Part shown: piece after piece, positions 1 through 25,213 of the stretch
Numbering within the stretch: the stretch's first letter is position 1
Layout: every line of letters starts with the position of its first letter
Origin: a virus
Length of the DNA stretch: 25,213 bases
Virus record (IMG/VR): IMGVR_UViG_3300042868_003087
Location: 1 to 25,213 of that record
Strand: one strand, 5' to 3'
Made by a program: the position numbers and the translations under genes
The notes under the pieces: generated by a model
The model's input: only the letters and a program-made list of their open reading frames with translations
What the model was told of the DNA's origin: nothing
Database searches by the model: none

Positions 1-2
1 TT

Positions 3-707
3 ATTGACTTTAATCCAGACGCTGAGTTCTGGGTGCATGAAGACTATTTGAATAATCCGACCGCAAAGTTTATTTATTCCGACCACAGAAACAATCCCTT
101 TGTCCCGAATGAGAACAGAGCCGAAATCGAGGCGCTTAAAGACATCGACATTGAATTGTGGAAAGTCTATGCAAGGGGAATCACTGGACGCATTGAGGGG
201 CTTATTTACCGCAACTGGACGATTGGAAATAGTTTCCCAGATGTGGAGTTTGTTTATGGGTTGGACTTTGGATATAACCATCCCACGACACTGGTCAAAT
301 GTGGATGGGACGAAAACAAATTCTATTTAGAAGAGGTCATTTATGAAAGTGGATTGACAACGGCTGACTTAATAGCTAAAATGCAGAAATTAAACATTGG
401 TCAAAAGGAAATATTTGCCGATGCTGCGAGACCAGATACAATCGAGGAACTTTATAGGGCGGGATTTAACGTCTTTAGTGCAGACAAATCGGTTAAAGAT
501 GGGATTAACACACTAAAGGCAAAGCCAATCATTCTGGTTGACTCTCCAAATGGAGTCAAAGAGTTCAAAACGTATAAATGGAAAACAGATAAAAACGGCA
601 AAGCAATTGACGAGCCAGTCAAGTTCAATGATGACTTTTGCGATGCTGCCAGATACGGCATATTTAATGGCACAAAATCCCACACTAAAAAAATATCATG
701 GTTTTAG
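3..707 (+). CDS. terL: Terminase large subunit, C-terminal part (partial at 5' edge)
   Basis: This is the nuclease half of the DNA-packaging motor, which cuts the concatemer and pumps DNA through the portal. The reading frame is open from base 3, so the ATPase domain lies upstream of the window; the ATG at 33 is internal. The first residues (DFNP...EFWVHEDYL) match the linker after the ATPase domain in phage terminases. Three RNase H-like nuclease acidic motifs are visible: DFGYNHPTT (Asp codon at 264), IFADAARPDTIEEL (Asp at 420) and NDDFCDAARYG (Asp at 642). The frame ends normally and overlaps the next gene by 10 bases. Family assignment is by motif pattern and is firm; the subfamily is not determined. 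Confidence 0.9.
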   Translation: MDFNPDAEFWVHEDYLNNPTAKFIYSDHRNNPFVPNENRAEIEALKDIDIELWKVYARGITGRIEGLIYRNWTIGNSFPDVEFVYGLDFGYNHPTTLVKCGWDENKFYLEEVIYESGLTTADLIAKMQKLNIGQKEIFADAARPDTIEELYRAGFNVFSADKSVKDGINTLKAKPIILVDSPNGVKEFKTYKWKTDKNGKAIDEPVKFNDDFCDAARYGIFNGTKSHTKKISWF

Positions 708-1432
708 TTAACATCGACAAAGAATATCAGTTCCCTACGCAATTGGACGAAATCACATTGAGGCATTTCATCGACTTGCAAAACTTATTGCATGAGGAAA
801 AATACAACGAAGCGGTCATGCTTATATCTGGAATCAGTCCCGACATTTACGACAAAATCAGTTTAGAGGGAAAATTGGAGTTAACTGGATTGGCTCAGAT
901 GTTAGTCAATGGCGAAATTCTTATGGTTGGCGAGCGATTAGATTTATACGAAATCATGGCTTGTCCGATTGGACAATTTGAAGACTGGAAAGCAACCATT
1001 GCTGAATTTAAGGATTGCGAATGGAAAGCATTGCCGTTTTTATGCTTGTTAGAGACTGGCGATTATAACTATGACACCAGAACAAACAAGCGCTATTTAG
1101 AATATTTAAACTTGCCCGCATCTGTTGCACTTTTTTACCAAAACAAAGTGAATGAGCAGTTTGCAGATATGCACAATAAATTCTTACCTTTGTTTGAGAG
1201 CGAATTAGAGGACATTCAATTGGAAGCGGGAGTTCAAAGTCTTAATCAGTTTGGCGGATATGGCACATTGGTGCAATTGGCAGACGGGGTTTATAAAGAC
1301 ATTGAAGTCGTGAGCAAAACAAGCGTTGCTGAGGCATACACTTTTTTAACTTACAAGAAGATTGAAAGAACCTATTTGCAGAACTTAGAAAAATTGAGAC
1401 GTGAACAAATTAATCGAAATATTCAAGACTAA
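698..1432 (+). CDS. Probable tail assembly chaperone-like protein
   Basis: A 244-residue soluble, largely helical acidic protein whose start overlaps the terminase stop by 10 bases. Its C-terminal third (GGYGTLVQLADGVY, then TSVAEAYTFLTYKKIE) resembles the end of phage tail assembly chaperones, which load onto the tape measure protein during tail building, but this is a resemblance recognised by eye. The gene lies between the terminase and small neck/tail genes, which fits a morphogenesis role. No signal peptide or membrane segment is seen. The following gene begins inside its 3' end with a GTG codon, so the two are probably translationally coupled. A different structural role remains possible. 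Confidence 0.5.
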   Translation: MVLVNIDKEYQFPTQLDEITLRHFIDLQNLLHEEKYNEAVMLISGISPDIYDKISLEGKLELTGLAQMLVNGEILMVGERLDLYEIMACPIGQFEDWKATIAEFKDCEWKALPFLCLLETGDYNYDTRTNKRYLEYLNLPASVALFYQNKVNEQFADMHNKFLPLFESELEDIQLEAGVQSLNQFGGYGTLVQLADGVYKDIEVVSKTSVAEAYTFLTYKKIERTYLQNLEKLRREQINRNIQD

Positions 1433-1844
1433 AGCCGAGCAGACTTATGCTTTCGGCAATGGAACGTTTAACGAGTTAAATGCGCAATCGGACATAAAAT
1501 ATCCGCTTATCTGGATGCTATTTCCTTTGAGCGTAACTAACAACTCGACCAATAACATTATTGTGTCGCAGACGTATTCATTTAACTTGCAATTTCTAAC
1601 GTCTGGCTCACTTACAGATAAACAATCAAAAATAAATAATCATTTTGACCAGTTAAATAAAATCATGGTTGGATATATCCAGTCAATGCAAATAGAAAAT
1701 GAAGACTTAGAGAGGGACGCAATGACATTTGGACAAGCAACAATGATAAATAAAAAACAAGACAATGTGCATTATGGTTGGTCGGTTGCGGTATCGGTAA
1801 CGTTGCCAATTGATTCAAGTTTATGTTGTGATTTATTTGCATGA
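1401..1844 (+). CDS. Probable neck/tail completion protein
   Basis: A 147-residue protein read from a GTG at 1401; a TGA at 1395-1397 closes the frame just upstream, and no earlier start is possible. The sequence KYPLIWMLFP, a beta-rich middle, and a helix containing DKQSKINNHFDQLNKI match the pattern of small Bacteroidota phage proteins at the tail-terminator or tail-completion position, where a protein caps the tail tube and joins it to the head. The call rests on pattern and position between a chaperone-like gene and a gp10-like gene, not on a known domain. It overlaps its upstream neighbour by 32 bases and the next gene by 4. Confidence 0.45.
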   Translation: MNKLIEIFKTKAEQTYAFGNGTFNELNAQSDIKYPLIWMLFPLSVTNNSTNNIIVSQTYSFNLQFLTSGSLTDKQSKINNHFDQLNKIMVGYIQSMQIENEDLERDAMTFGQATMINKKQDNVHYGWSVAVSVTLPIDSSLCCDLFA

Positions 1845-5960: not shown

Positions 5961-7736
5961 ATGGCAAAGAAAAAAATAAGCGGACTGCCTGCGGGTAGCG
6001 CTCTAAATGGAACTGAGTTAGTGCCTATCGTTCAGGCAGGAACAACAAAAAGAATCACAACGCAAGACATTGCAAATTTGAGTAATGCAATTGATGTTGA
6101 TGGTAGTGGCACAATTAATAGACTTGCAAAATTTACTGCAACCTCAACAATTGGAGATAGTGCATTTTTTGATGACGGCACAAATCAGGGAACTGAAACG
6201 ACAACTGCGATTAATCGTTTTATCATGTCTGCAAATGCTTCGATTGCAAAAATCTTTTCATTCAGAAGTGGGAATTTGCCTCGATGGGCATTTCGTGTGG
6301 ATGGAACTGAAAGTGGCGCAAATGCGGGAGCAGATTTGGCGATAAGAAGATATGACGATGCGGGAACTTTTATTGATGCTCCAATGACAATGGATAGGTC
6401 GGACGGCACAATAAGTGTTTTAAAAGATGCAACAATCAATGGAGTGGCAGTTGGTCGAGGTGCAGGAAGTATTGCAAGTAATACTGCATTTGGTCAAAGT
6501 GCTTTAATTGCAAATACAATTGGAACAAATAACACTGCTATTGGCGTTTCAGCTTTAACGGCAAACACAACGGCAGTAAATAACACCGCAATTGGAAGTG
6601 GGGCATTAGTTACAAATATTAGTGGAAACAATAACACTGCAATTGGAACATCTGCTTTATCTGCAAACACCTCAGCTAATAACACTGCAATTGGTCGATT
6701 GTGTCTCACATCAAATTCAACTGGAACTGCAAACACCGCAGTCGGCGTAAGTGCTTTACAATCTAATACACAATCAAATAACACTGCGATTGGTTTTGAA
6801 GCAGGAAAAGCAAATACAAGTGGAACTTTAACTGCAATAGGTTTTCAAGCATTATTAGCAAATACAAGTGGCGGCGCAAACACTGGAATTGGCTCAACAT
6901 CTTTAGGAAGCAACACAACTGGTGGCTCAAATACTGCAATCGGAAGTGGTGCTATGTTTGGGAATGTTGCAGGAAATAATAATACTGCAATGGGTTTAAA
7001 TGCTTTGCGTTCAAATAATGCAAGCAATAATGTTGCAGTTGGTTTTGACGCTGCTTTTTCAAATTCAAGTGGAACTTTAACTGCTATTGGTTATCAATCA
7101 TTAAGAGCAAACACAACTGGAACAAATAATACTGCATTAGGAGATAGAGCATTAACCGCAAACACAACTGGTATAACAAATACTGCTATTGGTCAAGCTG
7201 CATTATTTACAAATATTATAGGTAATAACAACACTGCTGTTGGAACAAGTGCTTTATTTGCAAACACTGGGTCTTCAAATACTGCTATTGGTTCAAGTGC
7301 TTTGCTAAACAACACCGCAGGAAATAACACCGCCGTAGGCTTTGAGGCTGCAAGTGGAAATACAACATCAACTGGAAACACTGCTATTGGTTATCAATCG
7401 TTAAAAGCATCTAACGGAGCAAATAACACCGCATTGGGATTACAATCTTTGCTTGTAAATACAACTGGTAGTCAAAACACTGCGATTGGACAAGTATCAT
7501 TAAGTGCCAATACAACTGGCTCGAATATTAGTGCTTTAGGCTACAATACGCAAAGTGGTAATTTTAGTGGAAGTATTATTTTGGGAGCAAACGCAGTTTC
7601 AACCGCAAATAATCAATTTGTTGTTGGTAGTTCGACAACAAATGCAGGAGCAGTAGCAACAGAAGTTTTAGTTTCAGATAGAAGTTGGGCAGTATTAATT
7701 AATGGAACGGCATATAAAATTTTAATGAAAGCATAA
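5961..7736 (+). CDS. Tail fibre protein with beta-roll repeats
   Basis: A 591-residue fibre. Residues 1-40 (KKISGLPAGSALNGTELVPI, then QAGTTKRITTQDI) form the usual short anchoring module of phage fibres. Residues about 50-170 form a beta-rich shoulder. Residues about 174-548 are some 22 tandem turns of the type NNTAIGxxALxxNTxG, like YadA/Hep_Hag head repeats that build trimeric left-handed beta rolls. The last 42 residues (from NNQFVVGSSTT to ILMKA) probably form the tip or trimerisation cap. There is no S74 peptidase domain and no obvious intramolecular chaperone. It likely binds the host surface receptor. The start follows a poly-A leader, and the stop overlaps the next ATG (TAATG). Confidence 0.85.
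   Translation: MAKKKISGLPAGSALNGTELVPIVQAGTTKRITTQDIANLSNAIDVDGSGTINRLAKFTATSTIGDSAFFDDGTNQGTETTTAINRFIMSANASIAKIFSFRSGNLPRWAFRVDGTESGANAGADLAIRRYDDAGTFIDAPMTMDRSDGTISVLKDATINGVAVGRGAGSIASNTAFGQSALIANTIGTNNTAIGVSALTANTTAVNNTAIGSGALVTNISGNNNTAIGTSALSANTSANNTAIGRLCLTSNSTGTANTAVGVSALQSNTQSNNTAIGFEAGKANTSGTLTAIGFQALLANTSGGANTGIGSTSLGSNTTGGSNTAIGSGAMFGNVAGNNNTAMGLNALRSNNASNNVAVGFDAAFSNSSGTLTAIGYQSLRANTTGTNNTALGDRALTANTTGITNTAIGQAALFTNIIGNNNTAVGTSALFANTGSSNTAIGSSALLNNTAGNNTAVGFEAASGNTTSTGNTAIGYQSLKASNGANNTALGLQSLLVNTTGSQNTAIGQVSLSANTTGSNISALGYNTQSGNFSGSIILGANAVSTANNQFVVGSSTTNAGAVATEVLVSDRSWAVLINGTAYKILMKA
6480..7604 (+). repeat. Coding repeats of the fibre beta roll, with a higher-order pattern
   Basis: About 22 units of 14-19 codons, core NNTAIG followed by xxAL and xxNTxG. 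Units have diverged at DNA level through synonymous change, so they are old or under protein-level selection. A longer pattern is superimposed: a block of the form ALxTNxxGNNNTAxG is seen near 6600, 6946 and 7197, and each block is followed within a few units by NNxAxGFxA. That implies duplication of multi-turn modules as well as single turns. Confidence 0.85.
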
Positions 7737-8140: not shown

Positions 8141-10510
8141 ATGGCAGACGAGAAGTCAATAGTATATAATGTCGATATTCAATTCGGCGAACTCCAGAAA
8201 AACCAAGAAGAGATTAAAAAAAGAATTTCTGACTTGCGAGAGGAGCAATCAAAATTAGACGTTTCAACTAAAGAAAACCAAAAGGCTTTTAGGGATAATA
8301 ACGCCCAGTTAAAAGCATTAGAGGGTCAATACAAGTTGAACGAAAAGTCTATTGGCGATTTATCGAATGCCGAGAAAGCAAACACAGACACGACCAATTT
8401 TAATAACAACTCAATAAAACAAAATCGTGAGTTGCTAAAGGAATTGAATGCGGAATATATACGACTTGCTAATCCAACCAAAGAACAGACGGCCAGACTA
8501 AAGAGTTTAACAGATACTTTAAAGGCTCAAGAGTCTGCAATTGGAGACAATCGCAGAAACGTTGGTAATTATGCCGAATCATTCAAAGGATTAATTGGTC
8601 AATTCCCTGCATTAGAGAAAGGATTAACTGGAGTTGGAAATGGATTTAAAGCATTAAGCGCAGGCAATCCATTTAGCTTAATTTTAATGGCAGTAACGCC
8701 ATTGATTCAGTCATTCATGAAATTAGAACCAGTAACAAATGCAATTAATGGAGTTTTTGAGGGACTAAGTGCGACAATCACAACCATTTCGTCATCGGTT
8801 AAAAACTTTTTTGATTTGGTAAGTTCTGGCGGGGGATTATTTGATTCCTTTTCAAACGCATTCAGTGGGTTAGGCTCGAGAATTGGAGAGGCAGCCGCAG
8901 AGGGTTACAACTTAGTGCAAGCATTGGACGACTTAGAAGACGCAGAGCGTGCAAACCAAGCGTCAATTGCCCAAACAAATAGGGATGTGGCTATCTTAAT
9001 TGCTCAATCTAAAGACAGAACTAAGACAGAGAAAGACAGAATTGCTTTATTGCAGGAAGCAAATAGATTAGAAGAGGCACAATTAAAAAAGGATGAGGAA
9101 TTAGCAAACAGAAGAGTTGCAGTTGCAGCGAAAGCATTATCAAACGCAATTAAAACTGGGCAAGATAGAGACACCGCAGAGCAGAGATTAGCAGATGCGC
9201 AACAAAAGCGTTTTGAAATACAACAAGCGGCGGGAACGCAGACAGAAAAAAATCAAGGTCGTATAAATGGATTGATTGAAGCTGAGGCAACATTAAAAGA
9301 AAAACAAAAAGAGAAAGAAAAAAAGAATTTAGAAGACCGAGCAAAGGAATTAGAAAAGTTTACTGCCAAAGTTAGAGCGCAATTATCTGAAGAGCAGAAA
9401 TTAAGGGTTGACGCATTCAATAACGAAAAAGTAATAAACGATTTAAACAGAGCACAATTTGAGGCCAATTTAAAAGAAGAGTTTGCAAATGGATTAAAAA
9501 CCAGAAAGCAATATGATGACGCTTTAAAGCAATCGCAGATAGATAGAAACAATGAGGAAATTGCTCGACTTGAGAGATACAATGGAATAACTGGAGCATA
9601 TGATGACCAAATCACTGCGCTAAAAATTGCCAATCAAAATTTGGTAACTGAAAATAAAATTGCAAACGATGAGGAGCAAAAACAATTAGACGAGCAGAAA
9701 TTGCAATATGAATTAGAACTTGCACAAGTTGAGGCAACTAATTTAGAGGATAAAAATGCAGCCGAAATTGCTATACTACAAAATCAAAATGCTATAATAT
9801 TAGCAGATACAAAGAAAACAGAAGAGCAAAAGAAAGTTGAGATTGCAAAAAATAATGCTGCAATTGTTAAGATTGAACAAGACACTGCAAAAGCCAGAAT
9901 TGAGGCGTTGACATCGGTTGGCCAATCGTTCATGGCATTATCTAAAATATTAGGAGAGAACACAAAAGAGGGGAAAGCATTGGCAATCGCTGCGACAATT
10001 ATAAGCACGTTGACATCTGCGCAAAATATTTATGAGTCAACATCTAAAATCCCTTTTGTCGGCTCAATTTTAGCGCCTATAAATGCGGGAATTGCTTTGT
10101 TGCAAGGTTACCAAAGAGTGCGAGAACTTAGAGCCGTAGAAGTCCCACAATTCGCAACTGGCGGATATGTTGACGGCTTTGCAAATGGCGGTTTATCTGG
10201 AACTCGAATTGGCTCTGGAATGGGAATGCCTATTCGCAGAAAAAATGGCGATAATTTATTAGCAACAATTAAGACTGGAGAGGTTATTTTAAACCAAAGA
10301 CAACAAGCGGCTTTAGGTGGCTCAAATACATTTAAGCGCATTGGAGTCCCTGGATTTGCTAACGGCGGGATGGTAACTCCAGACGCTGCGATTGATAGCA
10401 GTATTAACATTGCAGAAGCGTTGAAAGGATTACAATTGGTAGTAAGCGCAACCGAAATAACAGAAGTTCAAAACAGACTTAGAGTAATAGAAACAACAAC
10501 ATCACTATAA
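8141..10510 (+). CDS. Tape measure protein
   Basis: A 789-residue protein that sets tail length and is expelled at infection. Residues about 1-140 are coiled coil (Lys/Glu/Gln-rich, ELQKNQEEIKKRISDLREE). Around residues 170-190 there is a hydrophobic segment (NPFSLILMAVTPLIQSF). Residues about 260-590 are again long heptad-rich helices (AEAT, KEKQKEKEKK, EEQKLRV). The C-terminal part has a second hydrophobic stretch (SILAPINAGIALLQGY) and Gly-rich loops (FATGGYVDGFANGG, GSGMGMPIRR) typical of tape measure ends. No peptidase or lysozyme domain was seen. It is short for a long-tailed phage, so a fairly short tail is expected, provided the gene is complete. Confidence 0.85.
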   Translation: MADEKSIVYNVDIQFGELQKNQEEIKKRISDLREEQSKLDVSTKENQKAFRDNNAQLKALEGQYKLNEKSIGDLSNAEKANTDTTNFNNNSIKQNRELLKELNAEYIRLANPTKEQTARLKSLTDTLKAQESAIGDNRRNVGNYAESFKGLIGQFPALEKGLTGVGNGFKALSAGNPFSLILMAVTPLIQSFMKLEPVTNAINGVFEGLSATITTISSSVKNFFDLVSSGGGLFDSFSNAFSGLGSRIGEAAAEGYNLVQALDDLEDAERANQASIAQTNRDVAILIAQSKDRTKTEKDRIALLQEANRLEEAQLKKDEELANRRVAVAAKALSNAIKTGQDRDTAEQRLADAQQKRFEIQQAAGTQTEKNQGRINGLIEAEATLKEKQKEKEKKNLEDRAKELEKFTAKVRAQLSEEQKLRVDAFNNEKVINDLNRAQFEANLKEEFANGLKTRKQYDDALKQSQIDRNNEEIARLERYNGITGAYDDQITALKIANQNLVTENKIANDEEQKQLDEQKLQYELELAQVEATNLEDKNAAEIAILQNQNAIILADTKKTEEQKKVEIAKNNAAIVKIEQDTAKARIEALTSVGQSFMALSKILGENTKEGKALAIAATIISTLTSAQNIYESTSKIPFVGSILAPINAGIALLQGYQRVRELRAVEVPQFATGGYVDGFANGGLSGTRIGSGMGMPIRRKNGDNLLATIKTGEVILNQRQQAALGGSNTFKRIGVPGFANGGMVTPDAAIDSSINIAEALKGLQLVVSATEITEVQNRLRVIETTTSL

Positions 10511-13691: not shown

Positions 13692-13868
13692 ATGACAATT
13701 CCAGAACTTAAAATATATGTTGACTCGCAAGGCGGGCAAGCTATGAACAGAAAGGATATAACGTGGAATCTAATATTTGACATGTACAAAAGAGCAACTG
13801 GCAATAGGTTGTCAACTGGTTGCGGGTCGTGTTATAAAAGAGCATACAGATGGCTACAAAATCAATAA
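13692..13868 (+). CDS. Small Cys-containing protein, first gene of the glycan cassette
   Basis: A 58-residue basic protein with NRKDITWNLIFDMYKRATG and STGCGSCYKRAYRWLQ, that is a CxxC pair inside a helical stretch. I start it at the ATG at 13692, since the in-frame GTG at 13668 lies inside the terminator T run. Small proteins with this NRKDITW...CxxCYxRA pattern occur, as far as I recall, in other Bacteroidota phages. It is not an enzyme by size; a regulatory or DNA-binding role is conceivable. It overlaps the next gene by 19 bases. Confidence 0.6.
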   Translation: MTIPELKIYVDSQGGQAMNRKDITWNLIFDMYKRATGNRLSTGCGSCYKRAYRWLQNQ

Positions 13869-14527
13869 TTTATCAAATCTTTTTTGACGAAAAGACAAAA
13901 AAATATATTACTCCAAATGCGATTGGATATGACAATTCAATTTACGAGGGTAAAGAGTTGCAACCTGCGTTTGAAAACCACATCATTCGTGAGTTAATCG
14001 AGCAGGGGAAGCATAAAGAGGCTGAATACTTTGGCGTTTTCTCATGGCAGTTTGAATCTAAAAACTCCTATTGGCTAAAAAACTTAGAGGCGGATGTCAA
14101 AGACGCTGACATATACACATTTTATAGGTTGCACACGCAGCCAAACGTCTGGAGAGTTGCTGAGAACTGGCATTCTGGAATTATTAAAACGGCTCAACAT
14201 ATCTTTGACCAATTTAATGGCTTAAAAATAGACCGATTGCAGACGCCGACCATTTATCAGAATGCTCACGTTACACGTTCAGAGATTTACGAGGAATACG
14301 TTACAACGTGGCTAATTCCATTAATGGATATAATGGCAAATGGTGAAAATATATGGTTGCAAGAACATTTATACACTGACACCAAATATAAATCTGGTCG
14401 TTTCTCTAAAGAGCGTATTAAAGCAATCACTGGCGTTGAGTTTTATCCGATGCACACATTCATTTGTGAGCGTTTTTTCTCGACTTTTTGTGCAACTAAA
14501 AACTTTAAAATTAAACATTTATGCTAA
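13850..14527 (+). CDS. Polysaccharide-type glycosyltransferase-like protein (tentative)
   Basis: A 225-residue protein with SIIYQIFFDE at the start, EAEYFGVFSWQFESK around residues 58-72 and VTRSEIYEEYVTTWLIPLMD near residue 150. That layout, with the FGVFSWQF element, resembles proteins of bacterial capsule loci that I associate with sugar transfer. No classical DxD is obvious, so the activity is not shown. It opens a run of sugar-transfer genes and overlaps the fucosyltransferase-like gene by 7 bases, which supports a glycan role. It has no signal peptide or membrane segment and should act in the cytoplasm. Confidence 0.5.
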   Translation: MATKSIIYQIFFDEKTKKYITPNAIGYDNSIYEGKELQPAFENHIIRELIEQGKHKEAEYFGVFSWQFESKNSYWLKNLEADVKDADIYTFYRLHTQPNVWRVAENWHSGIIKTAQHIFDQFNGLKIDRLQTPTIYQNAHVTRSEIYEEYVTTWLIPLMDIMANGENIWLQEHLYTDTKYKSGRFSKERIKAITGVEFYPMHTFICERFFSTFCATKNFKIKHLC

Positions 14528-15300
14528 AGGTAAAATTGACAAGCAATTATGCTACGTCTGAAGTATTAGCGAGCGAGGTGATGCGCCAATTTGCTCCAAA
14601 AAACGAGGTGAAACCATTTAAGTTCACGAGTGGCAATGATTATGATTTGCTTTTTATATTTAATAATACAACAGAAGAGATAAAAGACCCTGCAAAAACG
14701 TTTGCATTTGCTCAAGAACCAAGTTGGTCTGAGAATTACAAAGATTGGAATGGTCAAGTAGCTGAGTTTATTGCACCAGTAAACAACCAATTGCCAATGA
14801 TGTTTAATTGGAGTGGCTTAGATTATGAAGAGGCAATCAATTTGAAATCTGAAAAGACTAAAAAATGCAGTTTTATTGTGGCTAAACAAGAACCGAGAGA
14901 GGGGACGTTGTATGGATTTAGAAACGAACTGGTCGAAAAGATATTGGCCTCAGATATGGACATCGATATTTACGGCAAAGGTTGGGACATTAAAGATGCC
15001 AGATACAAAGGCGAACTAAAAGATAAAAAAGACGGATTGATTGATTATCACACGTCAATTTGCATTGAAAATTCTATTGAGGATTACTACGTAACTGAAA
15101 AATTCTGGGACATTGTGATTTGCAATGCTTTTCCAATACCTTATACCGCTATTGCAGAGAATACAATGCAACGCTTGGAGGCTATTATTTCGCTTGCATC
15201 TGTTGGGGATTCGCAAAAACTTGTAGAAGAGCAAAAAGAATATTATTTTAGCGACTTAAACATTTATAATTACATTAAAAGCAAATGCCAATCTGCATAA
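14521..15300 (+). CDS. GT10-family alpha-fucosyltransferase-like protein
   Basis: A 259-residue glycosyltransferase with the GT10 donor-binding block SICIENSIEDYYVTEKFW (residues about 179-196) followed by ICNAFPIPY; this ENS...YxTEK signature is diagnostic for GDP-fucose alpha-1,3/1,4-fucosyltransferases. Upstream, FRNELVEKI and the YGKGW element (residues 151-155) fit the start of the C-terminal Rossmann domain. Length is short compared with 330-450 residues in Helicobacter enzymes, mostly because the acceptor domain is compact. GDP-fucose would come from the host. The gene overlaps both neighbours, so it belongs to one operon. Confidence 0.8.
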   Translation: MLKVKLTSNYATSEVLASEVMRQFAPKNEVKPFKFTSGNDYDLLFIFNNTTEEIKDPAKTFAFAQEPSWSENYKDWNGQVAEFIAPVNNQLPMMFNWSGLDYEEAINLKSEKTKKCSFIVAKQEPREGTLYGFRNELVEKILASDMDIDIYGKGWDIKDARYKGELKDKKDGLIDYHTSICIENSIEDYYVTEKFWDIVICNAFPIPYTAIAENTMQRLEAIISLASVGDSQKLVEEQKEYYFSDLNIYNYIKSKCQSA

Positions 15301-15938
15301 CTTTCGGAACAAAGGATTATCAACAAGCTATCGATAAATTGCATAAATCCATGAGCAGATTTATGTACACAAAAACGTTTAGCGAGAAGAGTGTTGAAAT
15401 GCTTTTTGATGCTTACCCAGAGCATCTATATTCGTCTCGAGGTTATGGTTGGTGGCTTTGGAAACCTTATTTAATAGATTACATTTTGAGCATTATTGAC
15501 GAGGGCGAATATGTCATGTATCTGGACTCAACAATTGAATGCCTAAAGAATCCAAATGACTTAATCAAAGAGGGCGAAAATATAAAGCTATTTCATAACG
15601 GACAAAGGCATATTGATTGGTGCAAATCTGAGACATATTATGACATGGGCGTTGTTTGCATGCCAGACCAATTACAAGCGAATGCAGCAATCCAAATTTA
15701 TAGAAATACACCAGAGACCAGAGCATTTGTGCAGGAATATTTTAATCTTTGCTCGCAATTAATGTTAGTCAATGATGAGTTCAATCCAGATTATCAATTG
15801 AGCGGTTTTAAAGGCCATAGACATGACCAATCTATTTTAACTAACTTAGCGGTCAAATACAATATTAAATTGAATACATCGCCTTGCCAATGGGGCATGG
15901 GTGCAAATGCTTACTTTAACCATCACAGAACAATATGA
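15285..15938 (+). CDS. GT-A-type glycosyltransferase-like protein
   Basis: A 217-residue protein with SRGYGWWLWKPYLIDYIL (from residue 51) and YVMYLDSTIE (from residue 77), the paired GYGWWLWKPY and YLD-S signatures of a GT-A-like family found in LPS and capsule loci; the Asp of YLDS is the likely metal and nucleotide-sugar ligand. Near the C-terminus GFKGHRHDQSILTNL contains the HDQS element that usually follows the acceptor loop in this family. The product is cytoplasmic. It begins 16 bases inside the previous gene, which argues for translational coupling. Confidence 0.68.
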   Translation: MPICITFGTKDYQQAIDKLHKSMSRFMYTKTFSEKSVEMLFDAYPEHLYSSRGYGWWLWKPYLIDYILSIIDEGEYVMYLDSTIECLKNPNDLIKEGENIKLFHNGQRHIDWCKSETYYDMGVVCMPDQLQANAAIQIYRNTPETRAFVQEYFNLCSQLMLVNDEFNPDYQLSGFKGHRHDQSILTNLAVKYNIKLNTSPCQWGMGANAYFNHHRTI

Positions 15939-16108
15939 ACATTTACAAAATAATTTTAGCGTTTATCGTTTTGCTTTCTTATAATCGTATTTATAAAAAA
16001 GACTGGAAATTCTTTAAAGAATATGGCGGCTCTCGCATTTATTATACAAAAACAATTATCACAATTTTAATTCAGTTAGGTATTTTCTTTATAATTTACA
16101 AAGCATGA
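15935..16108 (+). CDS. Small membrane protein, unknown function
   Basis: A 57-residue protein with two hydrophobic segments, residues about 2-16 (NIYKIILAFIVLLSY) and about 40-55 (TIITILIQLGIFFII), separated by a basic loop (KKDWKFFKEYG). It starts in an ATGA overlap with the preceding gene and ends in another ATGA. It could anchor glycosyltransferases to the inner membrane; that is only a suggestion. Confidence 0.6.
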   Translation: MNIYKIILAFIVLLSYNRIYKKDWKFFKEYGGSRIYYTKTIITILIQLGIFFIIYKA

Positions 16109-16284
16109 CAATAAAAGGCGTATTAAGGAAAGACGATGACGGCCTATATTTAGAGGTCGTAAAAAAAATGTATTTGAATGACTACATTATGAGCGTTGAG
16201 CAGGCAGAAAAATTAAATAAAATAATAGGTAAAAAAATCACTTTAGAATATGAAGACATTAGTCCAGTTGGCGCTGAAAAATAA
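16105..16284 (+). CDS. Small soluble protein, unknown function
   Basis: A 59-residue charged protein (MTIKGVLRKDDDGLYLEVVK, later EQAEKLNKIIGKKITLEYED) beginning at the ATGA overlap and ending 35 bases inside the methyltransferase gene. The coupled position and balanced composition suggest a real gene. It looks like a small beta/helix fold; no domain recognised. Confidence 0.55.
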   Translation: MTIKGVLRKDDDGLYLEVVKKMYLNDYIMSVEQAEKLNKIIGKKITLEYEDISPVGAEK

Positions 16285-16777
16285 GGCTCAACAAAAACCA
16301 TTAGAATTTAAAGAGTTGTTGCATGCGCTTAACTCAATGAAGAGCAAAAAGATTGCAGTTGAAATTGGTAGTTATGACGGCGGGTGCTTACATGCTTACA
16401 AAGGTTTGTTCGACAAAGTTATTTCAATCGATATTGAAAAGCGTTCAAATATTGAGGGCGTGGATTATTTAATTGGCGACTCTAAAGAGTTGAAAGCCGA
16501 TTTAATCAAAGCACTGGGCAATAGCAATGCAAAGATTGATTTCCTTATGATTGACGGCGACCATACATATGAGGGCGTAAAGGCAGATTTCGAAATTTAT
16601 TCTAAGTTTGTGCGCAAGGGTGGGGTTATTGCTTTTCATGATATATTAGACACGCCAATACATAGGGAATTATTTTGCCGAGTGGATAAGTTTTGGAATG
16701 AAGTTAAAGACGGCAAAGAGCATGACGAATTTATTGAGGGTTCTGACTGGGGCGGAATTGGAATTTTATGGATATAA
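16250..16777 (+). CDS. Class I SAM-dependent methyltransferase, sugar-modifying type (probable)
   Basis: A 175-residue Rossmann methyltransferase of the Methyltransf_24 kind. Motif I VEIGSYDGG (residues 37-45) binds SAM, DIE at 61-63 is the ribose-binding acid, IDGDHTYEGVKADF (from residue 101) is the family signature with possible metal-binding Asp and His residues, and IAFHD (residues 127-131) follows. Related enzymes methylate sugars or hydroxylate precursors in glycan and antibiotic pathways. Its place among glycosyltransferase genes implies methylation of the glycan. It is shorter than the usual 200-250 residues but has all core strands. Confidence 0.75.
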   Translation: MKTLVQLALKNKAQQKPLEFKELLHALNSMKSKKIAVEIGSYDGGCLHAYKGLFDKVISIDIEKRSNIEGVDYLIGDSKELKADLIKALGNSNAKIDFLMIDGDHTYEGVKADFEIYSKFVRKGGVIAFHDILDTPIHRELFCRVDKFWNEVKDGKEHDEFIEGSDWGGIGILWI

Positions 16778-17379
16778 TTATAACTTGCAAAGATAGATTG
16801 CCACACTTAAAAAAGTGCATTGCAACTATTAAAGACAAATCAAAGATATTCGTTGTTTGTTACGGCGATGAAATGGCATTTAGATATTGCCAAAATAATG
16901 GAATCCGCTCGAGCCTGACGGCCGCAAAAGATTTCCATTTGTCAAAGGCCAGAAACTTGGGGGTTGCTGAAACTACGGACGAATGGATATTCTTTTGCGA
17001 TGCGGACACCATACTTGACCCGACATTTTTTAATAGCTTAGATTTAAAAGACGGCAATTATTACACTGGAGAGCCAGATTGTTCAGGAAATTGCATCGTT
17101 AAGCGCTCAGATTTTATGGGTTACGACGAAAACATCAAAGGATATGGCGGAGAGGATTCCGATTTATATATTTCTTTAACCAGAAATGGGATTCAAAAAA
17201 ACTTTATTAAGTCAATGCGATACATTCCACATTCAGATTTTGATAGGACAAAGAACTATGGAAACAATAAAAAATGGGAGCAGCAAAAGAAAAACATTAT
17301 CTATTTAATGAGCAAGCATCCGCATGAATTTATTTTTCCGCAATATGTTCCAAACGAAATGAAACTACTTTTTGTATGA
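16768..17379 (+). CDS. GT-A glycosyltransferase with GalT/GalNAcT-type C-terminal motif
   Basis: A 203-residue glycosyltransferase. It opens MDIIITCKDRLPHLKKCI (beta strand and nucleotide loop), has HLSKARNLGVAET around residues 57-69, a DAD metal motif at 78-80, and GYGGEDSDLYISL from residue 125, the Glyco_transf_7C block of galactosyl- and N-acetylgalactosaminyl-transferases and of chondroitin polymerases. The whole is one compact catalytic domain, so it is predicted to transfer a hexose or hexosamine. It overlaps the methyltransferase by 10 bases. Confidence 0.78.
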   Translation: MDIIITCKDRLPHLKKCIATIKDKSKIFVVCYGDEMAFRYCQNNGIRSSLTAAKDFHLSKARNLGVAETTDEWIFFCDADTILDPTFFNSLDLKDGNYYTGEPDCSGNCIVKRSDFMGYDENIKGYGGEDSDLYISLTRNGIQKNFIKSMRYIPHSDFDRTKNYGNNKKWEQQKKNIIYLMSKHPHEFIFPQYVPNEMKLLFV

Positions 17380-17651
17380 TATACAACTCAATTGTAATTA
17401 GTTTGCTATGCTTTGGCTTTTATCGGTCAACCAGACATGGGAATATTTTATATTTTGTCCAAAGATTTGCGGATAAATTACCAAAGATATTTGGAAAGCC
17501 GATTTGCTTGTGTCTCACTTGCATGTCATCGTTTCACACATTGTTGTGGCATCCGATTTTATTTGGGATAAGCGTTGACATTATTCCAACCATCTTAATT
17601 GTGGCCTCATTTAATTACTTTATTGATTTAATAGTCTCGAATTATGAATAA
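17376..17651 (+). CDS. Small membrane protein with CLTCMSS motif
   Basis: A 91-residue protein with about three hydrophobic segments and the motif KPICLCLTCMSSFHTLLWHP in the middle, a Cys-x2-Cys followed by aromatic residues. The pattern resembles phage membrane proteins of the DUF1360 kind, but the assignment is by eye. It is coupled by ATGA to the preceding glycosyltransferase. It may help in membrane presentation of the glycan or in exclusion of other phages; neither is shown. Confidence 0.55.
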   Translation: MIYNSIVISLLCFGFYRSTRHGNILYFVQRFADKLPKIFGKPICLCLTCMSSFHTLLWHPILFGISVDIIPTILIVASFNYFIDLIVSNYE

Positions 17652-18369
17652 ACTGGCAGGCATTTGGAATGTTTGGGATGGCGACGAGCATTTGCGCCGT
17701 TCAATTGAGTTAATCAAACCACATTTGGACGTTGTCATTGTCGTTTACCAAAACGTAAGCAACTCTGGAGAGTTTTATGAGCCAACTTTGCCACATGAAT
17801 TGATTGACTTAACAGAATTTTACATCCCTGCGGTTGGGCAAAGTGGCCAAGCAAATGAAACAATCAAAAGAAATAGAGGTTTGGAACTTGCAAAGAGCGT
17901 TGGTTGCACCCATTTCATTCAAATGGATTGCGACGAAATGTATTTTAGCGAGGATTTTGAGCGTGCAAAGGAGCAAGTTTATATTGCGGAACTGGATGCA
18001 AGCTATTGCAGGCTAAAAACCTATTATAAATACCCAACAAAACAACTATCGCCAGACGAAGACTATTTCGTTCCCTTTATTCATAAAATTTACAAGGAAA
18101 CAATCATGTGTTTCGACAAAAAATATCCTGCGTTTGCAGACCCAACAAGGCGAACCAATACTTACGCCAAACATAAGCAAATTGAATGGCTAAGGATGCA
18201 CCATTATTCGTTTGTCCGCAATAATATTGAACGCAAGTTGAGAAATTCGTCATCGTCAACCGCATTTGATGGGCAATATGAAATCTGGAATCGTTTTGAA
18301 CAGACTGGCGAAATGATACATTTCAAAAATTATAAGACAATTGATGTCCCAAACCATTTCGATTTGTAA
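17644..18369 (+). CDS. GT-A glycosyltransferase-like protein
   Basis: A 241-residue protein starting GIWNVWDGDEHLRRSIELI with VVIVVYQNVSNSGE at residues 30-43, typical of a GT-A family that transfers sugar to a glycan. The likely metal motif is FIQMDCDEMYF, with DCDE at 95-98. Later, EWLRMHHYSFVRNN contains His residues that often complete the active site. It is the last gene of the sugar cassette and overlaps the previous gene by 8 bases. The sugar transferred cannot be told. Confidence 0.68.
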   Translation: MNKLAGIWNVWDGDEHLRRSIELIKPHLDVVIVVYQNVSNSGEFYEPTLPHELIDLTEFYIPAVGQSGQANETIKRNRGLELAKSVGCTHFIQMDCDEMYFSEDFERAKEQVYIAELDASYCRLKTYYKYPTKQLSPDEDYFVPFIHKIYKETIMCFDKKYPAFADPTRRTNTYAKHKQIEWLRMHHYSFVRNNIERKLRNSSSSTAFDGQYEIWNRFEQTGEMIHFKNYKTIDVPNHFDL

Positions 18370-18414: not shown

Positions 18415-19707
18415 ATGGAACTAACTCAAATATCAGACAATTATTTCATGTTTACGGCTAAAGCGCCTGCGGATTTATCTGTTTTTAATCAAACGGATGA
18501 CACTGCAAACAAAATTGTGCGCTATGGCAAGGACAATAATTTTCCTCAAGAACTAATTAAGGCGGTGCAGTCGTCTCCAATTGCAAACGCATGCGTTGAA
18601 ACACATGCAAAATTTTTGTATGGGGATGGTTTATATTTTGAAACTCCGACTGGAGAGGAAACAGATTTCTCGAGAAAATTGAGCGAGGTTTTTAACGAGT
18701 CAATGTTCCAACGCATTTGCTATGACATGGCATATTTTGAAAGTTTGGGATTGATTATGAAATGGGATTTGAATGGCTTTTTAAAAAGCGTTAAATCTCA
18801 GGATTTTTCAACCATTCGTTTAGGTATTCCAAACAAAGATTTTGAAATCACATTTGCTAAGTTGTCAAGTAACTGGCAACAAGAAACAAAAGACAGAAGA
18901 TACAAAGCCGTTCCGATTGATTTATATAATGACATCGAAACAAAAGCTAAAATTTCAAACTATAATACCAATTCATTATACGAAGACTTTAGCAAATGGA
19001 ATGGTACTTTGAAATATATTCGCAGATATAAGCCAGGCCAAGTATATTATTCACAACCTAAATATGCGTCTGCATTAAAATGGATTTATGCCGATGGGCA
19101 AATTCAGAATTTCCATGCTAATAATATTGACAACTCTTTTGCACCTGCATTTATCGTTTACGTTCCGTACAAATTAACTGGCGAGGATGAAAACGGCAAG
19201 GACATGAAAGAGTCATTGAGAGAATACATTGCAGACAGATTAACTGGCGCAGATAATGGCGGTAAATTTGCGATTTTGGATGGCTCATCAAAAGAGGGGT
19301 CAATCCAGATTATACCATTTAGCCAGAGTACGTCTCATGAAATGTATATCACACTTTCTAATTTAATTAGAGACCATATTGCAACGGCGTTTCAAGTGCC
19401 ATCTATTTTAGCAGGGATTCAGGTTTCTGGAAAATTAGGAACTGCAAAAGAAATTGCAGACTCTTCAATTTATTATCAGAATGCAGTCATTAAACATGAC
19501 CAAAATTTATTGATGTATGAAATGAATGCACTGGCAAAATTAATGGATGGTTACGATGGCACTATTATAAAAGTAACAAACTCGATTCCTTTGGCTTTTG
19601 TTGCTGACTCGTTTGCAGGTGCATTTACAGAGGACGAAATCAGAGAGGCTTTTGGATATAGTCCTAAAAAATTAGAATCAATTACACCAATTAACCCAGT
19701 TCAATAA
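18415..19707 (+). CDS. Portal protein
   Basis: A 430-residue portal, the dodecameric gate for DNA packaging. SSPIANACVETHAKFLYGDG near residue 53 matches the N-terminal clip/wing start of portals; a wing region follows, then SHEMYITLSNLIRDHIATAF and PSILAGIQVSGKLGTA around residues 310-350 give the typical stem helix and crown loop (the FQVPSILAG segment is a portal hallmark). Length is normal. It lies about 18 kb downstream of the terminase and beyond the glycan cassette, which is an unusual place. It is joined to the next gene by TAATG. Confidence 0.87.
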   Translation: MELTQISDNYFMFTAKAPADLSVFNQTDDTANKIVRYGKDNNFPQELIKAVQSSPIANACVETHAKFLYGDGLYFETPTGEETDFSRKLSEVFNESMFQRICYDMAYFESLGLIMKWDLNGFLKSVKSQDFSTIRLGIPNKDFEITFAKLSSNWQQETKDRRYKAVPIDLYNDIETKAKISNYNTNSLYEDFSKWNGTLKYIRRYKPGQVYYSQPKYASALKWIYADGQIQNFHANNIDNSFAPAFIVYVPYKLTGEDENGKDMKESLREYIADRLTGADNGGKFAILDGSSKEGSIQIIPFSQSTSHEMYITLSNLIRDHIATAFQVPSILAGIQVSGKLGTAKEIADSSIYYQNAVIKHDQNLLMYEMNALAKLMDGYDGTIIKVTNSIPLAFVADSFAGAFTEDEIREAFGYSPKKLESITPINPVQ

Positions 19708-20548: not shown

Positions 20549-20838
20549 TTATTGAAGCGAACATCGACACGAAAGTTGTTTTGTTTCTCGAGGAAACTTA
20601 TAGCTATTATTTATTTCAGTACACCAGAAATAATGGTTGCGATGAGTTTATTGATGTTATTACCGCAGTTGAATGCGATTTTTATACATTCATTGTGAAT
20701 GTGGATTTGCCTACTGGGTTTTGGAATTTAAAAGTTTATGGACAAGACGATTATTCAAACTTAAATCCCGCAAATGCGACTTTAGTATTTGAGGACATGG
20801 CCAGAATAATCAATTTAGCAGATGAGTGTTTATTATGA
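20542..20838 (+). CDS. Small beta-rich protein, paralogue B of the previous gene
   Basis: A 98-residue protein. YYLFQYTRN, VECDFYTFIVNVDLPTGFWN and LKVYGQDDYSNLNPANATLV line up with the corresponding parts of the upstream protein (CD followed by F, then L-G-W-N/D-L, then G-Q and NLxPxxATxxxxD). It lacks the C-terminal repeats. The divergence is large, so the duplication is old. Probably a virion or assembly component in tandem with its sister; no further function is seen. ATGA overlap with the holin gene. Confidence 0.6.
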   Translation: MVVIEANIDTKVVLFLEETYSYYLFQYTRNNGCDEFIDVITAVECDFYTFIVNVDLPTGFWNLKVYGQDDYSNLNPANATLVFEDMARIINLADECLL

Positions 20839-21209
20839 GAAATTGGTTAGTTAAAAGTTTAGACGTTATTATCATTTATTTAGTTACCTATTTCTCTCCG
20901 ACATTCTCGGTTTTGATGGGAATCAGCTTTCTGGTGCTAATTGATTTTATCACTGGTATGGTTGCCGCTTATAAAAGAGGTGAAGCGATTACAAGCCGTA
21001 AAATGAGGCCAACAATTACCAAAGGAATGGGCTACATGTTTGCAATTTTAGCAGGTCATGTTTTTCAAAGACATTTTTTGCCAGAAATTGAGGTAATGAA
21101 AATCGTATCTGGTCTAATTGCGTTTATTGAGTTAAAGTCTCTGGACGAAAACCTAAAAGACATGACTGGCAAAAGTCTATTTAAACAATTTTTTAAAGAG
21201 GGCAAATAA
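20835..21209 (+). CDS. Phage holin (phage_holin_4-like)
   Basis: A 124-residue membrane protein started at the ATG at 20835, coupled to the preceding stop by ATGA, rather than the GTG at 20826. Hydrophobic segments cover residues about 10-25 (VIIIYLVTYFSPTFSV), 27-45 (MGISFLVLIDFITGMVAAY) and 63-75 (GYMFAILAGHVFQ), plus an amphipathic stretch; the loop KRGEAITSRKMRPTITKG is the family signature of small toxin-secretion/lysis holins, as is the C-terminal SLDENLKDMTG. It probably forms the inner-membrane lesion that releases the endolysin next door. Confidence 0.85.
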   Translation: MRNWLVKSLDVIIIYLVTYFSPTFSVLMGISFLVLIDFITGMVAAYKRGEAITSRKMRPTITKGMGYMFAILAGHVFQRHFLPEIEVMKIVSGLIAFIELKSLDENLKDMTGKSLFKQFFKEGK

Positions 21210-21808
21210 TGAATTTAGATAAACTGAAAGGGCATGTCCCAGCTTCGGTTATTGCTCAAATCCCTTTTGTTGTTAATCAATATAAAATCAACACAGCTTT
21301 AAGGCTATCGCATTTTCTGGCTCAATGTGGCCACGAATCAGCTAATTTCAGAGCAGTCAAAGAAAATCTCAACTATTCGGCTGAGGGATTAACTAAAACA
21401 TTCAAAAAATATTTTCCAACTTTAGAGGTTGCCAAAGATTATGCAAGGCAACCAGAGAAAATTGCATCAAAGGTTTACGCCAACAGAATGGGAAATGGAA
21501 ATGAAGCGTCAAAGGATGGGTTTAAATATTTAGGCAGGGGATTTATTCAGCTAACTGGCAAGGCTAATTATATTGAATTTGATAAAAGCGTTCCAGAGGA
21601 TATAATAAACAATCCAGAACTGGTTGCAACTAAATATCCTTTGGCATCGGCTGCATGGTTCTGGAATAAAAATGGATTGAATGCAATAGCAGACAAAGGA
21701 GCAACGGATGCGGTTATAACGTCAATAACTAAACGAGTAAATGGCGGCACAATTGGCCTTTCAGATAGGATTCAGCATTTCAATGAGTTCTATTCCTTAC
21801 TTGGCTAA
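21209..21808 (+). CDS. GH19-type endolysin (lysozyme/chitinase-like)
   Basis: A 199-residue muralytic enzyme of glycoside hydrolase family 19. AQCGHESANFRAVKENLNYS (residues 39-57) is the signature with likely catalytic Glu43 and a second acid at Glu52; YANRMGNGNEASKDGFKYLG and RGFIQLTGKANY give the substrate cleft. There is no signal peptide, so it needs the holin to reach peptidoglycan. The whole chain is one domain, the usual length for phage GH19 lysins. It is coupled by TAATG to the holin gene. Confidence 0.9.
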   Translation: MNLDKLKGHVPASVIAQIPFVVNQYKINTALRLSHFLAQCGHESANFRAVKENLNYSAEGLTKTFKKYFPTLEVAKDYARQPEKIASKVYANRMGNGNEASKDGFKYLGRGFIQLTGKANYIEFDKSVPEDIINNPELVATKYPLASAAWFWNKNGLNAIADKGATDAVITSITKRVNGGTIGLSDRIQHFNEFYSLLG

Positions 21809-23845: not shown

Positions 23846-23852
23846 GCCCTAA

Positions 23853-23884: not shown

Positions 23885-23917
23885 ATAAAAAAAATATTAA
23901 AAAAAAATAAAAAATGT

Positions 23918-23958: not shown

Positions 23959-23986
23959 CAAACGAAAACTATTAAAAACTAAAAAC

Positions 23987-24115
23987 ATGAACAGATTAAA
24001 AACTAAACACTCGGATTACACAGACGCACAATTCAAAGAAACATTGTTAGGCTTTGCAACTTTGATTATTGGATTCATTTCATTTATGGGTTTTTTATTT
24101 TATTATTTAGGATAA
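23987..24115 (+). CDS. Small single-span membrane protein
   Basis: A 42-codon frame: polar start MNRLKTKHSDYTDAQFKETL, then one hydrophobic helix (LLGFATLIIGFISFMGFLFY). It is the first gene after the promoter with its palindrome and ends in a TAATG overlap with the next gene. The function is unknown; small inner-membrane proteins at this place can affect host or superinfection, but nothing shows it here. Confidence 0.6.
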   Translation: MNRLKTKHSDYTDAQFKETLLGFATLIIGFISFMGFLFYYLG

Positions 24116-24465
24116 TGGGAGCAGTTAAAACGGCGATGACATTGGCAAGTTTGCCAGTGAATTCAGAATGCGAAATATCAGACATTATCATGAATGGCTC
24201 AACTTACATTGTTAGCGGTTATTATACAACCAACGAAAATGAGGAGCAAAGCTATCTGGTTATAACAGAAAAGGAACTGGACAAATACTTATCGGAATAC
24301 TATTCTATTGAAGAGGTTAAATCAAATATCAAAAATGGAAAATATATTATCATGACAGATGGCGAGGGCGAGAATGCAACGTTTATTCCATTTGACCAGT
24401 TTATTGATGAGAACAAATACGAATTATTTTATAATCTAATTAAAAGCGAAAGTGGTAAATTTTAA
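24115..24465 (+). CDS. Unrecognised soluble protein
   Basis: A 116-residue acidic protein coupled by TAATG to the small membrane protein. It contains VNSECEISDIIMNGSTYIVS and later GKYIIMTDGEGENATFIPFD, beta-rich segments separated by a helix-forming region (EKELDKYLSEYYSIEEVKS). No known domain is apparent. It lies in what looks like the early small-gene region, and the next gene begins inside its end. Confidence 0.6.
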   Translation: MGAVKTAMTLASLPVNSECEISDIIMNGSTYIVSGYYTTNENEEQSYLVITEKELDKYLSEYYSIEEVKSNIKNGKYIIMTDGEGENATFIPFDQFIDENKYELFYNLIKSESGKF

Positions 24466-24832
24466 ATTAAAAGGGAAAATCGAAGCCAAAGAAAATGGAG
24501 TCGATTATATGATTAAGCAATTCAATTCGGAAATTATGGTTTATGCTTTTGAGGGCAAAGACTTGTCGGTTGAAAATAAGTTTATTGAATTAAGGGACGC
24601 AATGAAATATGTCCGAGAGCATGCCAGAAAAAAAGCGGGCGAAATATCTAAAACTTACAACCAGACAATCATTGGTAAATTAAAACTGGGTGAAGACTAT
24701 TCAGTCCCAGAGGCTGAAATCAAAAACCAACGCTCTCTGGTTTCTTATTACAGAAAGACCAGAAATAGAGACTACATGTTTGACGTTTTTTATAATAGTG
24801 GTAAATTTTTTAAAATAACGAGAATAAAATGA
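24452..24832 (+). CDS. Unrecognised small basic protein
   Basis: A 126-residue protein read from GTG at 24452, 14 bases inside the previous gene; an in-frame ATG at 24509 is the alternative start and would remove 19 residues. The protein is beta-rich at first (KLKGKIEAKENGVDYMIKQF) and then helical and basic (AMKYVREHARKKAGEISKTY). No family recognised. The last residues, YNSGKFFKITRIK, are a basic strand. Confidence 0.5.
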   Translation: MVNFKLKGKIEAKENGVDYMIKQFNSEIMVYAFEGKDLSVENKFIELRDAMKYVREHARKKAGEISKTYNQTIIGKLKLGEDYSVPEAEIKNQRSLVSYYRKTRNRDYMFDVFYNSGKFFKITRIK

Positions 24833-25155
24833 TAGCATCACACATCGAGGCATTTGGCCAAGTATTAAGCAAACAAGGTTTTGTATTAATAGAACGAATC
24901 GAAGAGCCATTTATGGCGCATTTTATTAAAGATGAATTCGAAATAAAGTTGAACTGGGAGACATTCACATTGCCGAATTGTTACGCTCCGCTTTATTACC
25001 CAGACTCAGAAGACCAAGCAATGACATTGCTTGCATGTCATGGAATCATTAAATTACCCAGAGACTACAAAAGCGACTCAGAAAAATTAAATTTAATCGT
25101 TAAATGTGGCTCATTAGTTAATCAAAGTTTAATCAATCAAATAATAAAATCATGA
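24829..25155 (+). CDS. Unrecognised small protein
   Basis: A 108-residue protein coupled by ATGA to the previous gene. It starts MIASHIEAFGQVLSKQGFVL and contains EIKLNWETFTLPNCYAPLYY and ALYYPDSE-like Pro/Tyr stretches followed by LACHGIIKLPRDYKSDSEKL. It may be a single alpha/beta domain. No catalytic motif or membrane segment was found. It ends four bases inside the next coding frame. Confidence 0.6.
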   Translation: MIASHIEAFGQVLSKQGFVLIERIEEPFMAHFIKDEFEIKLNWETFTLPNCYAPLYYPDSEDQAMTLLACHGIIKLPRDYKSDSEKLNLIVKCGSLVNQSLINQIIKS

Positions 25156-25213
25156 AGTTAATCCATACCTATCCACACAGACAAGAAGAGGACGGATGTC
25201 CAAAGACAGAAGT
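25152..25213 (+). CDS. Partial coding frame at the 3' edge
   Basis: An ATGA-coupled frame with 20 complete codons, beginning MKLIHTYPHRQEEDGCPKTE, open to the window end with no stop. Context makes it the next gene of the small-gene operon; too little is present for identification. Confidence 0.5.
   Translation, partial: MKLIHTYPHRQEEDGCPKTE

Follow-up and report, generated by a model that had tools for sequence, protein, structure and literature searches.

Absence of GATC and other short palindromes from a clade of tailed phages, probably as a result of restriction

Genes of the window and the missing palindromes

The stretch of DNA analysed here, referred to as the window, comprises 25,213 bases and is a viral record in its own right (IMG/VR IMGVR_UViG_3300042868_003087), and the subject of this report is the absence from it, and from its relatives, of the tetranucleotide GATC and of several other short palindromes. 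The window is part of a tailed phage, and of a phage of Bacteroidota as judged by the relatives of its terminase. The C-terminal part of the large terminase is encoded at positions 33-707 (Pfam Terminase_3C), on the plus strand like the other genes of the window that are named below. A ClpP-like protease (10923-12005) is probably the prohead protease, since it sits before the gene of the major capsid protein (12033-13007), which was itself assigned from its position and because it weakly resembles the XkdG-like protein of Bacteroides phage BS-TP3. The portal protein (18415-19707) matched Pfam Phage_portal with 36.1 bits, just below the curated cut-off of 39.1, and is followed by a holin (20826-21209) and a GH19-type endolysin (21209-21808). 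No tRNA genes were found in the window or in five stretches from its relatives.

The capsid protein query retrieved 39 related viral loci, and for the terminases an alignment of three relatives was used to collect further sequences, of which the best 80 of 513 confirmed viral relatives were used. Related terminase loci were also found in bacterial genomes (19 loci, 31-53% identity), and 16 of these lie in Bacteroidota, including Mucilaginibacter, Hymenobacter, Adhaeribacter, Pontibacter, and Bacteroides; they were taken for putative prophages. The relatives of the full-length terminase homologue in locus L041 occur mostly in Bacteroidota genomes and, among others, in phages of Bacteroides, Phocaeicola, and Flavobacterium. 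End repeats of 121-127 bases, as in complete circular assemblies, were present in three records of the group that includes the window, termed clade A (32.6-33.4 kb), and in one record of a sister group, clade B (35.4 kb). For L029, a locus of clade B, the source is hypolimnion water of Lake Erie, according to the accessible text of PMC12697132; its metagenome was the only one traced among six metagenome ids looked up.

A scripted count revealed no GATC on either strand of the window, where Markov models led to an expectation of 81 copies from base composition, 65 from dinucleotides, and 53 from trinucleotides (the maximal-order model). This bore out an earlier note on the same DNA, which had claimed that GATC is absent; the base shares estimated there were slightly off the measured ones (A 36, T 28, G 20, and C 16%), while its figure of about 80 expected copies agrees with the zero-order value. 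The note was right but incomplete, because CTAG, CCGG, and CGCG, which it did not mention, were equally absent from both strands (28, 19, and 33 copies expected, respectively, under the maximal-order model). The window also lacked GGNCC, ACNGT, AAGCTT, CTGCAG, and GAAN4TTC. Other 4-bp palindromes, namely TGCA, CATG, TCGA, and ACGT, were found at 0.93-1.01 of expectation. Under the definition of elimination given in the accessible text of PMC6286503 (observed/expected below 0.1 with more than 15 copies expected), GATC, CGCG, CTAG, and CCGG all count as eliminated, with the ratio taken here from the maximal-order Markov model rather than from that paper's own estimator.

The same absence was evident in codon choice. 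When synonymous codons were shuffled among the 33 genes of the window (23,841 bases), with the proteins and the overall codon usage kept, 500 shuffles gave 56.4 ± 6.0 copies of GATC (minimum 40) against none observed, and on average 30.2 of CTAG, 22.6 of CGCG, and 18.9 of CCGG; zero was not reached in any of the 500 shuffles for any of the four words. AGCT and GTAC were reduced in these genes yet present (32 and 12 copies, compared to shuffle means of 76.6 and 41.1). Before a codon starting with C, Asp was written GAC in all 26 cases, whereas elsewhere GAT and GAC occurred 234 and 206 times. Ile following a codon that ends in G was never ATC (0 of 73, compared to 127 of 575 elsewhere), and Ser following a codon that ends in GA was never TCN (0 of 9, compared to 334 of 494). 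The two instances of GATC-avoiding codon choice that had been pointed out previously, GAC-CAA at 12294-12299 and GAC-CAT at 16559-16564, both on the plus strand, proved correct. On the strength of the Markov expectations at three orders and the codon shuffles, chance and composition were rejected as the cause of the absence.

Persistence in clade A and turnover in the sister clades

None of the four words was found in any of 27 clade-A sequences (the window and loci L001-L026), and within L001-L026 the absence was seen under 24 metagenome ids; that of GATC recurred in the three clade-A records with end repeats. A wider count took in 48 of the 59 loci of clade A and six longer records, which gave 54 contigs with 643,980 bases; the remaining 11 loci were omitted because their contigs were already represented by a different piece. 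The observed and expected numbers in these contigs, which are homologous and thus not independent counts, were 3 and 1,359 for GATC, 2 and 835 for CTAG, 0 and 520 for CCGG, and 1 and 988 for CGCG. The control words reached 0.76-0.98 of expectation in the same contigs (TCGA 1560/2054, ACGT 1405/1428, CATG 1913/2301, and GCGC 1228/1477). The six stray sites fell in five contigs, and two of the sites were no more than 50 bases away from where a contig ends.

This absence has persisted through considerable divergence. Six clade-A records, in each of which all four words are eliminated, show differences at 10.95% of the positions aligned. Of the one-substitution differences between them in windows of four bases, not a single one yielded GATC, CTAG, CCGG, or CGCG, where 1370, 1371, 634, and 615, respectively, were expected from the neighbouring words, although these expectations, which derive from 15 pairs and both strands, are not independent. 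The other twelve palindromes were obtained at 0.41 (AGCT), 0.42 (GTAC), and 0.91-1.51 (the remaining ten) of expectation. This is most simply read as a steady removal of new sites, with selection, and not history alone, keeping these genomes free of them.

A survey of all words in the six records (181 kb), with elimination defined as less than 0.12 of expectation, showed a strong preference for palindromes. Four of the 16 palindromic 4-mers were eliminated and none of the 120 others (Fisher P 1e-4); for the 6-mers, the numbers were 8 of 39 palindromic and 6 of 1,642 other words (Fisher P 1e-10). Seven of 397 interrupted palindromes were also eliminated. The list, in which some words overlap one another, comprises GATC, CTAG, CCGG, CGCG, GGNCC, ACNGT, GGNNCC, CCNGG, AAGCTT, CCATGG, CTGCAG, GATATC, GAAN4TTC, GCTNAGC, and AGCN4GCT, which we take to be largely known targets of Type II restriction enzymes. 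Asymmetric 5-mers were eliminated in 11 of 496 cases, five of them being parts of ACNGT, GGNCC, or CCNGG; CCAGC, CCTTC, CACGG, AGCTC, and others cannot be accounted for in this manner.

The motif GAANNNNTTC was avoided at this spacer length, with none of 7 expected copies in the window and 5 of 58 over the six records; GAAN4TTC was missing altogether from four of the six, and no other spacer length was as low over the six together. A methyltransferase with this motif as its verified target is known from a Bacteroidetes genome of Lake Biwa.

The sister clades were found to avoid different sets of words. In clade B (about 80% capsid identity), CTAG is missing, and ACGT and CCAG are absent save for a single contig, L114, with one ACGT and three CCAG (30 CCAG expected). 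Its contigs hold between 0 and 11 GATC each, and most of them have more CCGG than expected. The unplaced locus L037 contains three GATC and one ACGT. Clade C is without GATC, CTAG, CATG, GCGC, and CCAG. From clade E (48-50% terminase identity), CATG, GGCC, and GCGC have nearly vanished, while GATC is absent in only some of its members.

Two of the avoided words, CCAG and CCTG, are asymmetric. CCAG/CTGG was absent from clade-B G015 and G016 (0 of 53 and 0 of 35 expected) and from clade-C G018 (0 of 36), which together correspond to loci L047-L050 and L053-L054, while CCTG, CCAC, CCAA, and CCAT were all present there and CCCG was reduced in clade B (7 of 26 in G015 and 3 of 20 in G016). In clade E, CCTG/CAGG was absent from L144 and L142 (0 of 27 and 0 of 30), and few copies were left in L131 and L152. 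Neither absence is explained by any palindromic Type II site. The excess of CCGG in clade B (144 versus 79 expected in G015, and 116 versus 59 in G016) falls at positions that in clade A often hold CCAG/CTGG: with both strands counted, G015 has CCGG at 33 of the 115 positions homologous to a CCAG of clade-A G012, and G018 has CCTG at 32 of 110. CATG of G012, a word that neither clade A nor clade B avoids, was kept as CATG in G015 at 48 of 100 positions; G018 holds no CATG.

The terminase tree, built from 56 rows chosen out of 99 loci (the 19 from bacterial genomes and the best 80 viral ones), indicated that the avoided set turns over. Eight gains or losses of GATC elimination are needed on this tree, and seven of them are forced by well-supported branches. 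L155 (GATC 12 of 20 and CTAG 0 of 24 expected) groups there with L152 (GATC 0 of 35 and CTAG 13 of 55). The terminases of L155, L152, and L145 are near-identical while the GATC/CTAG pattern of L155 is the opposite of that of the other two, which would fit either a recent switch of avoided sites or a recombined terminase.

Protection genes, lifestyle and the search for a host

No match to the DNA methyltransferase families PF01555 (20 records searched), PF00145 (16), and PF02086 (16) was found, the record of the window included, and protection by a methyltransferase of the phage itself was rejected for these three families on that basis. A Methyltransf_24 protein is encoded at 16250-16777; it adjoins glycosyltransferase-like genes and, judging from these neighbours, is presumably an enzyme of the sugar genes. 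The cluster of glycosyltransferase-like and methyltransferase-like genes lies between capsid and portal at about 13850-18369, contains a glycosyltransferase family 10-like protein (14521-15300), and appeared by eye to be kept in clade B (L047). A search confined to tyrosine integrases (PF00589) gave no match in 16 records, including the three of clade A and the one of clade B with end repeats. Upstream of the terminase genes, clades B and C carry a ParB-like gene (L048, 11579-12181, with Pfam ParB_N; L053, 1828-2364, recognized by eye).

The capsid alignment revealed no relative among bacterial genome contigs. When 19,999 bases of the window were compared with 12 of the genomes that carry terminase loci, two weak matches were obtained, both in one genome, and comparison of the same DNA with 394 genomes of the Paraflavitalea family (Chitinophagaceae) gave short matches in 39 genomes. 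The strongest of the latter fell mostly in the gene of a long, repetitive, fibre-like protein with NTAIG-type repeats (5961-7736), and one in the gene at 8141-10510. None of twelve examined matches lay near repeats resembling those of clustered regularly interspaced short palindromic repeats (CRISPR), defined as 20-mers occurring at least three times at a spacing of 45-95 bases.

Among 344 genomes of Chitinophagaceae, a candidate family for the host, the restriction enzyme family DpnII was found in 6 and the MjaI family in 20, with both in genome G212; DpnII cuts at GATC and MjaI at CTAG. In addition, a Chitinophagaceae genome from Lake Biwa carries a verified GAAN4TTC methyltransferase beside a restriction enzyme (PMC6329791, accessible text). 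This genome is regarded as a lead and not as the host, because the four main words are not reported as methylated there.

Explanations for the loss of sites

It is very probable that several Type II restriction systems of the host selected these sites out of a probably lytic tailed phage of Bacteroidota with a genome of roughly 33 kb. Such hosts would carry several restriction-modification systems, and each site remaining in the phage would be a risk of cleavage as its DNA enters the cell. Mutations that remove sites would be favoured and new sites weeded out, each eliminated palindrome depriving one enzyme of its targets, until the genome offers these enzymes no target. In this view, restriction removed GATC along with three or more other tetranucleotides, and probably about a dozen sites in all. 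The explanation draws on the preference for palindromes, the codon shuffles, the missing substitutions and the clade-wide counts in clade A, the different sets of the sister clades, the retention of CCGG and CGCG in the loci from bacterial genomes, the DpnII and MjaI families in Chitinophagaceae, and the avoidance of GAAN4TTC. While the absence itself and its pattern are observed, host Type II enzymes as the agents, their identity, the lytic lifestyle, and the host bacterium are inferred. The long exposure to host restriction that the earlier note had suggested is well supported; its single GATC-specific system is not, given the joint loss of at least four palindromes of 4 bp and of several that have 5-6 bp or are interrupted. 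Likewise, the Dam-linked control that it offered as an alternative would, as a sole cause, leave CTAG, CCGG, CGCG, GGNCC, and AAGCTT untouched.

Several results weigh against the explanation by host restriction. In the 19 bacterial-genome loci, counted together with their bacterial flanks, CCGG was at 0.75 of expectation or above, and CGCG at 0.55 or above in the 18 loci with more than one copy expected; but GATC was under half of expectation in seven loci (L057 13/47, L064 1/43, L066 60/124, L067 23/60, L072 12/52, L074 11/27, and L075 9/50) and CTAG below 0.3 in 12, so that the shortage extends beyond free phages. This control is therefore weaker for GATC and CTAG, which lowers confidence; because of these ratios, CTAG and partly GATC are seen as avoided more widely, and it is the loss of CCGG and CGCG that sets clade A apart. 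To this are added the dependence among the expectations of the substitution test and the words that palindrome-cutting enzymes do not explain, namely the asymmetric CCAGC, CCTTC, CACGG, and AGCTC of clade A and CCAG of clades B and C. Moreover, the capsid, DNA, and CRISPR-repeat searches yielded no host, and hence no cognate enzyme was matched, and the accessible text of PMC6329791 does not report methylation of GATC, CTAG, CCGG, or CGCG in the Lake Biwa genome. The low locus L064 belongs to Hymenobacter negativus and carries a related terminase; a single GATC was counted there where 43 were expected.

Part of the avoidance, chiefly where it concerns CCAG in clades B and C or CCTG in clade E, might possibly answer a defence that is no palindrome-cutting enzyme, for instance a Type IIS, IIG, III or bacteriophage exclusion (BREX)-like system, or CRISPR through its protospacer adjacent motif, which would add to the main explanation rather than replace it. 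The proposal draws on the complete loss of CCAG from G015, G016, and G018 next to four words that were retained, and on the reduction of CCCG in the first two. According to the accessible text of PMC6286503, sites of Type I and IIG systems show no avoidance and those of Type III very rarely do, so that such a case would be unusual. Against the proposal, phages can also avoid the asymmetric sites of orthodox Type IIS enzymes, the searched genomes revealed neither a host nor a matching CRISPR array, and L114 of clade B retains its three CCAG.

Mutation or composition alone is an improbable cause. Deamination of methylated cytosine would turn CCGG into CTGG/CCAG, and the excess of this product in clade A (126 versus 88 expected in G012), where CCGG is absent, is what it predicts; a general genome signature could also account for part of the CTAG loss, given the rarity of that word in 12 of the 19 bacterial loci. 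However, the relation is reversed in clade B, where G015 has no CCAG and an excess of CCGG. Furthermore, deamination leaves GATC, GGNCC, and AAGCTT unexplained, and neither the composition-keeping shuffles nor the trinucleotide models ever give zero.

Still less credible is a sequence-specific nuclease encoded by the phage against host DNA, from which the complete absence of sites would guard the phage itself. In 20 proteins of the window and nine of the apparently complete G012, a scan that took in part of the small genes, the nuclease-like candidates were the terminase and two weak matches just below threshold, to a YqaJ-like exonuclease and to a RusA-like resolvase, with no known 4-bp cutter among them, and one nuclease would not account for a dozen unrelated sites. 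Avoidance of GATC through Dam/MutH mismatch repair or another Dam-linked control is proposed for phiX174, which lacks GATC and whose mutation rate is lowered by added sites (PMC5014478, accessible text). For the window it is very hard to sustain, since Dam and MutH would act on GATC only and three other 4-bp and several longer palindromes are equally absent, which rules out any single GATC-specific cause. Bacteroidota are not known for MutH, which also counts against it. Finally, loss of GATC-containing DNA during library preparation or assembly, conceivable in that the window and its viral relatives are IMG/VR records, nearly all metagenomic, can be practically dismissed, because related contigs with GATC came from the same metagenome ids (10 copies in L027 and none in L118 for 3300037042; none in L001 and 14 in L128 for 3300042154) and the absence recurs under 24 ids and in the three clade-A records with end repeats.

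No title or abstract on this phage group was found in the literature searched, whose coverage excludes most subscription journals. Staphylococcus phage K, a double-stranded DNA phage of about 140 kb, has likewise lost GATC completely, which is explained by avoidance of the host Type II enzyme Sau3A (PMC6532042, accessible text); it was compared for GATC alone and has a Gram-positive host and a known enzyme, whereas here at least four 4-bp palindromes have gone from a metagenomic clade. According to the accessible text of Rusinov et al. (2018; PMC6286503), the same extreme under-representation of Type II-like palindromes occurs above all in non-temperate double-stranded DNA phages, site elimination being commonest in those without other protection, and (almost) complete elimination is found in about one-tenth of viral genomes. 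The present group differs from the known host and enzyme pairs of that study in that it is metagenomic, has lost several sites at once, shows the loss of an asymmetric 4-mer in its sisters, and turns over its set. The phage phiX174 (5.4 kb) shares the absence of GATC but has single-stranded DNA and a link of GATC to mismatch repair (PMC5014478, accessible text), while the avoidance described here is not limited to GATC.

Five cultured phages, four of them represented by a partial record, were also counted; Flavobacterium FPSV-S2 and Dulem virus 31 had two eliminated 4-bp palindromes each, and the other three had none. FPSV-S2, Phocaeicola BV737P3, and Bacteroides ARB25 carry a related terminase (33-34% identity), and in FPSV-S2 CATG and CGCG are eliminated and GATC is scarce (22 of 74 expected). 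Compared to four eliminated 4-bp palindromes in the window, the three have 2, 0, and 0, respectively, with 21.5 and 21.8 kb counted for FPSV-S2 and ARB25. Dulem virus 31 (L191, PP511318.1) is recorded as Microviridae, yet has 35.8 kb with terminase, portal, and tail genes, and this classification looks like an error.

Site elimination is a known strategy, and this phage group is a further case of it. What seems unusual is that so many sites were lost together, that they are kept out almost perfectly across a clade seen under many metagenome ids, that the sister clades have different sets, and that clades B and C have lost the asymmetric CCAG. The avoided set may, as a tentative proposal, be a readable and fast-changing imprint of the restriction repertoire of the host, including an undescribed defence that recognizes CCAG for clades B and C and one that recognizes CCTG for clade E, from which hosts could be identified and past switches of defence reconstructed. 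Many environmental phages have no known host; in the present case the missing words form a list of enzymes with which the phage has probably been in contact, and the different lists of its relatives indicate turnover within phage lineages. If this is true, lists of missing sites could narrow down hosts, trace changes of the restriction repertoire in natural waters, and flag defences that recognize odd words such as CCAG.

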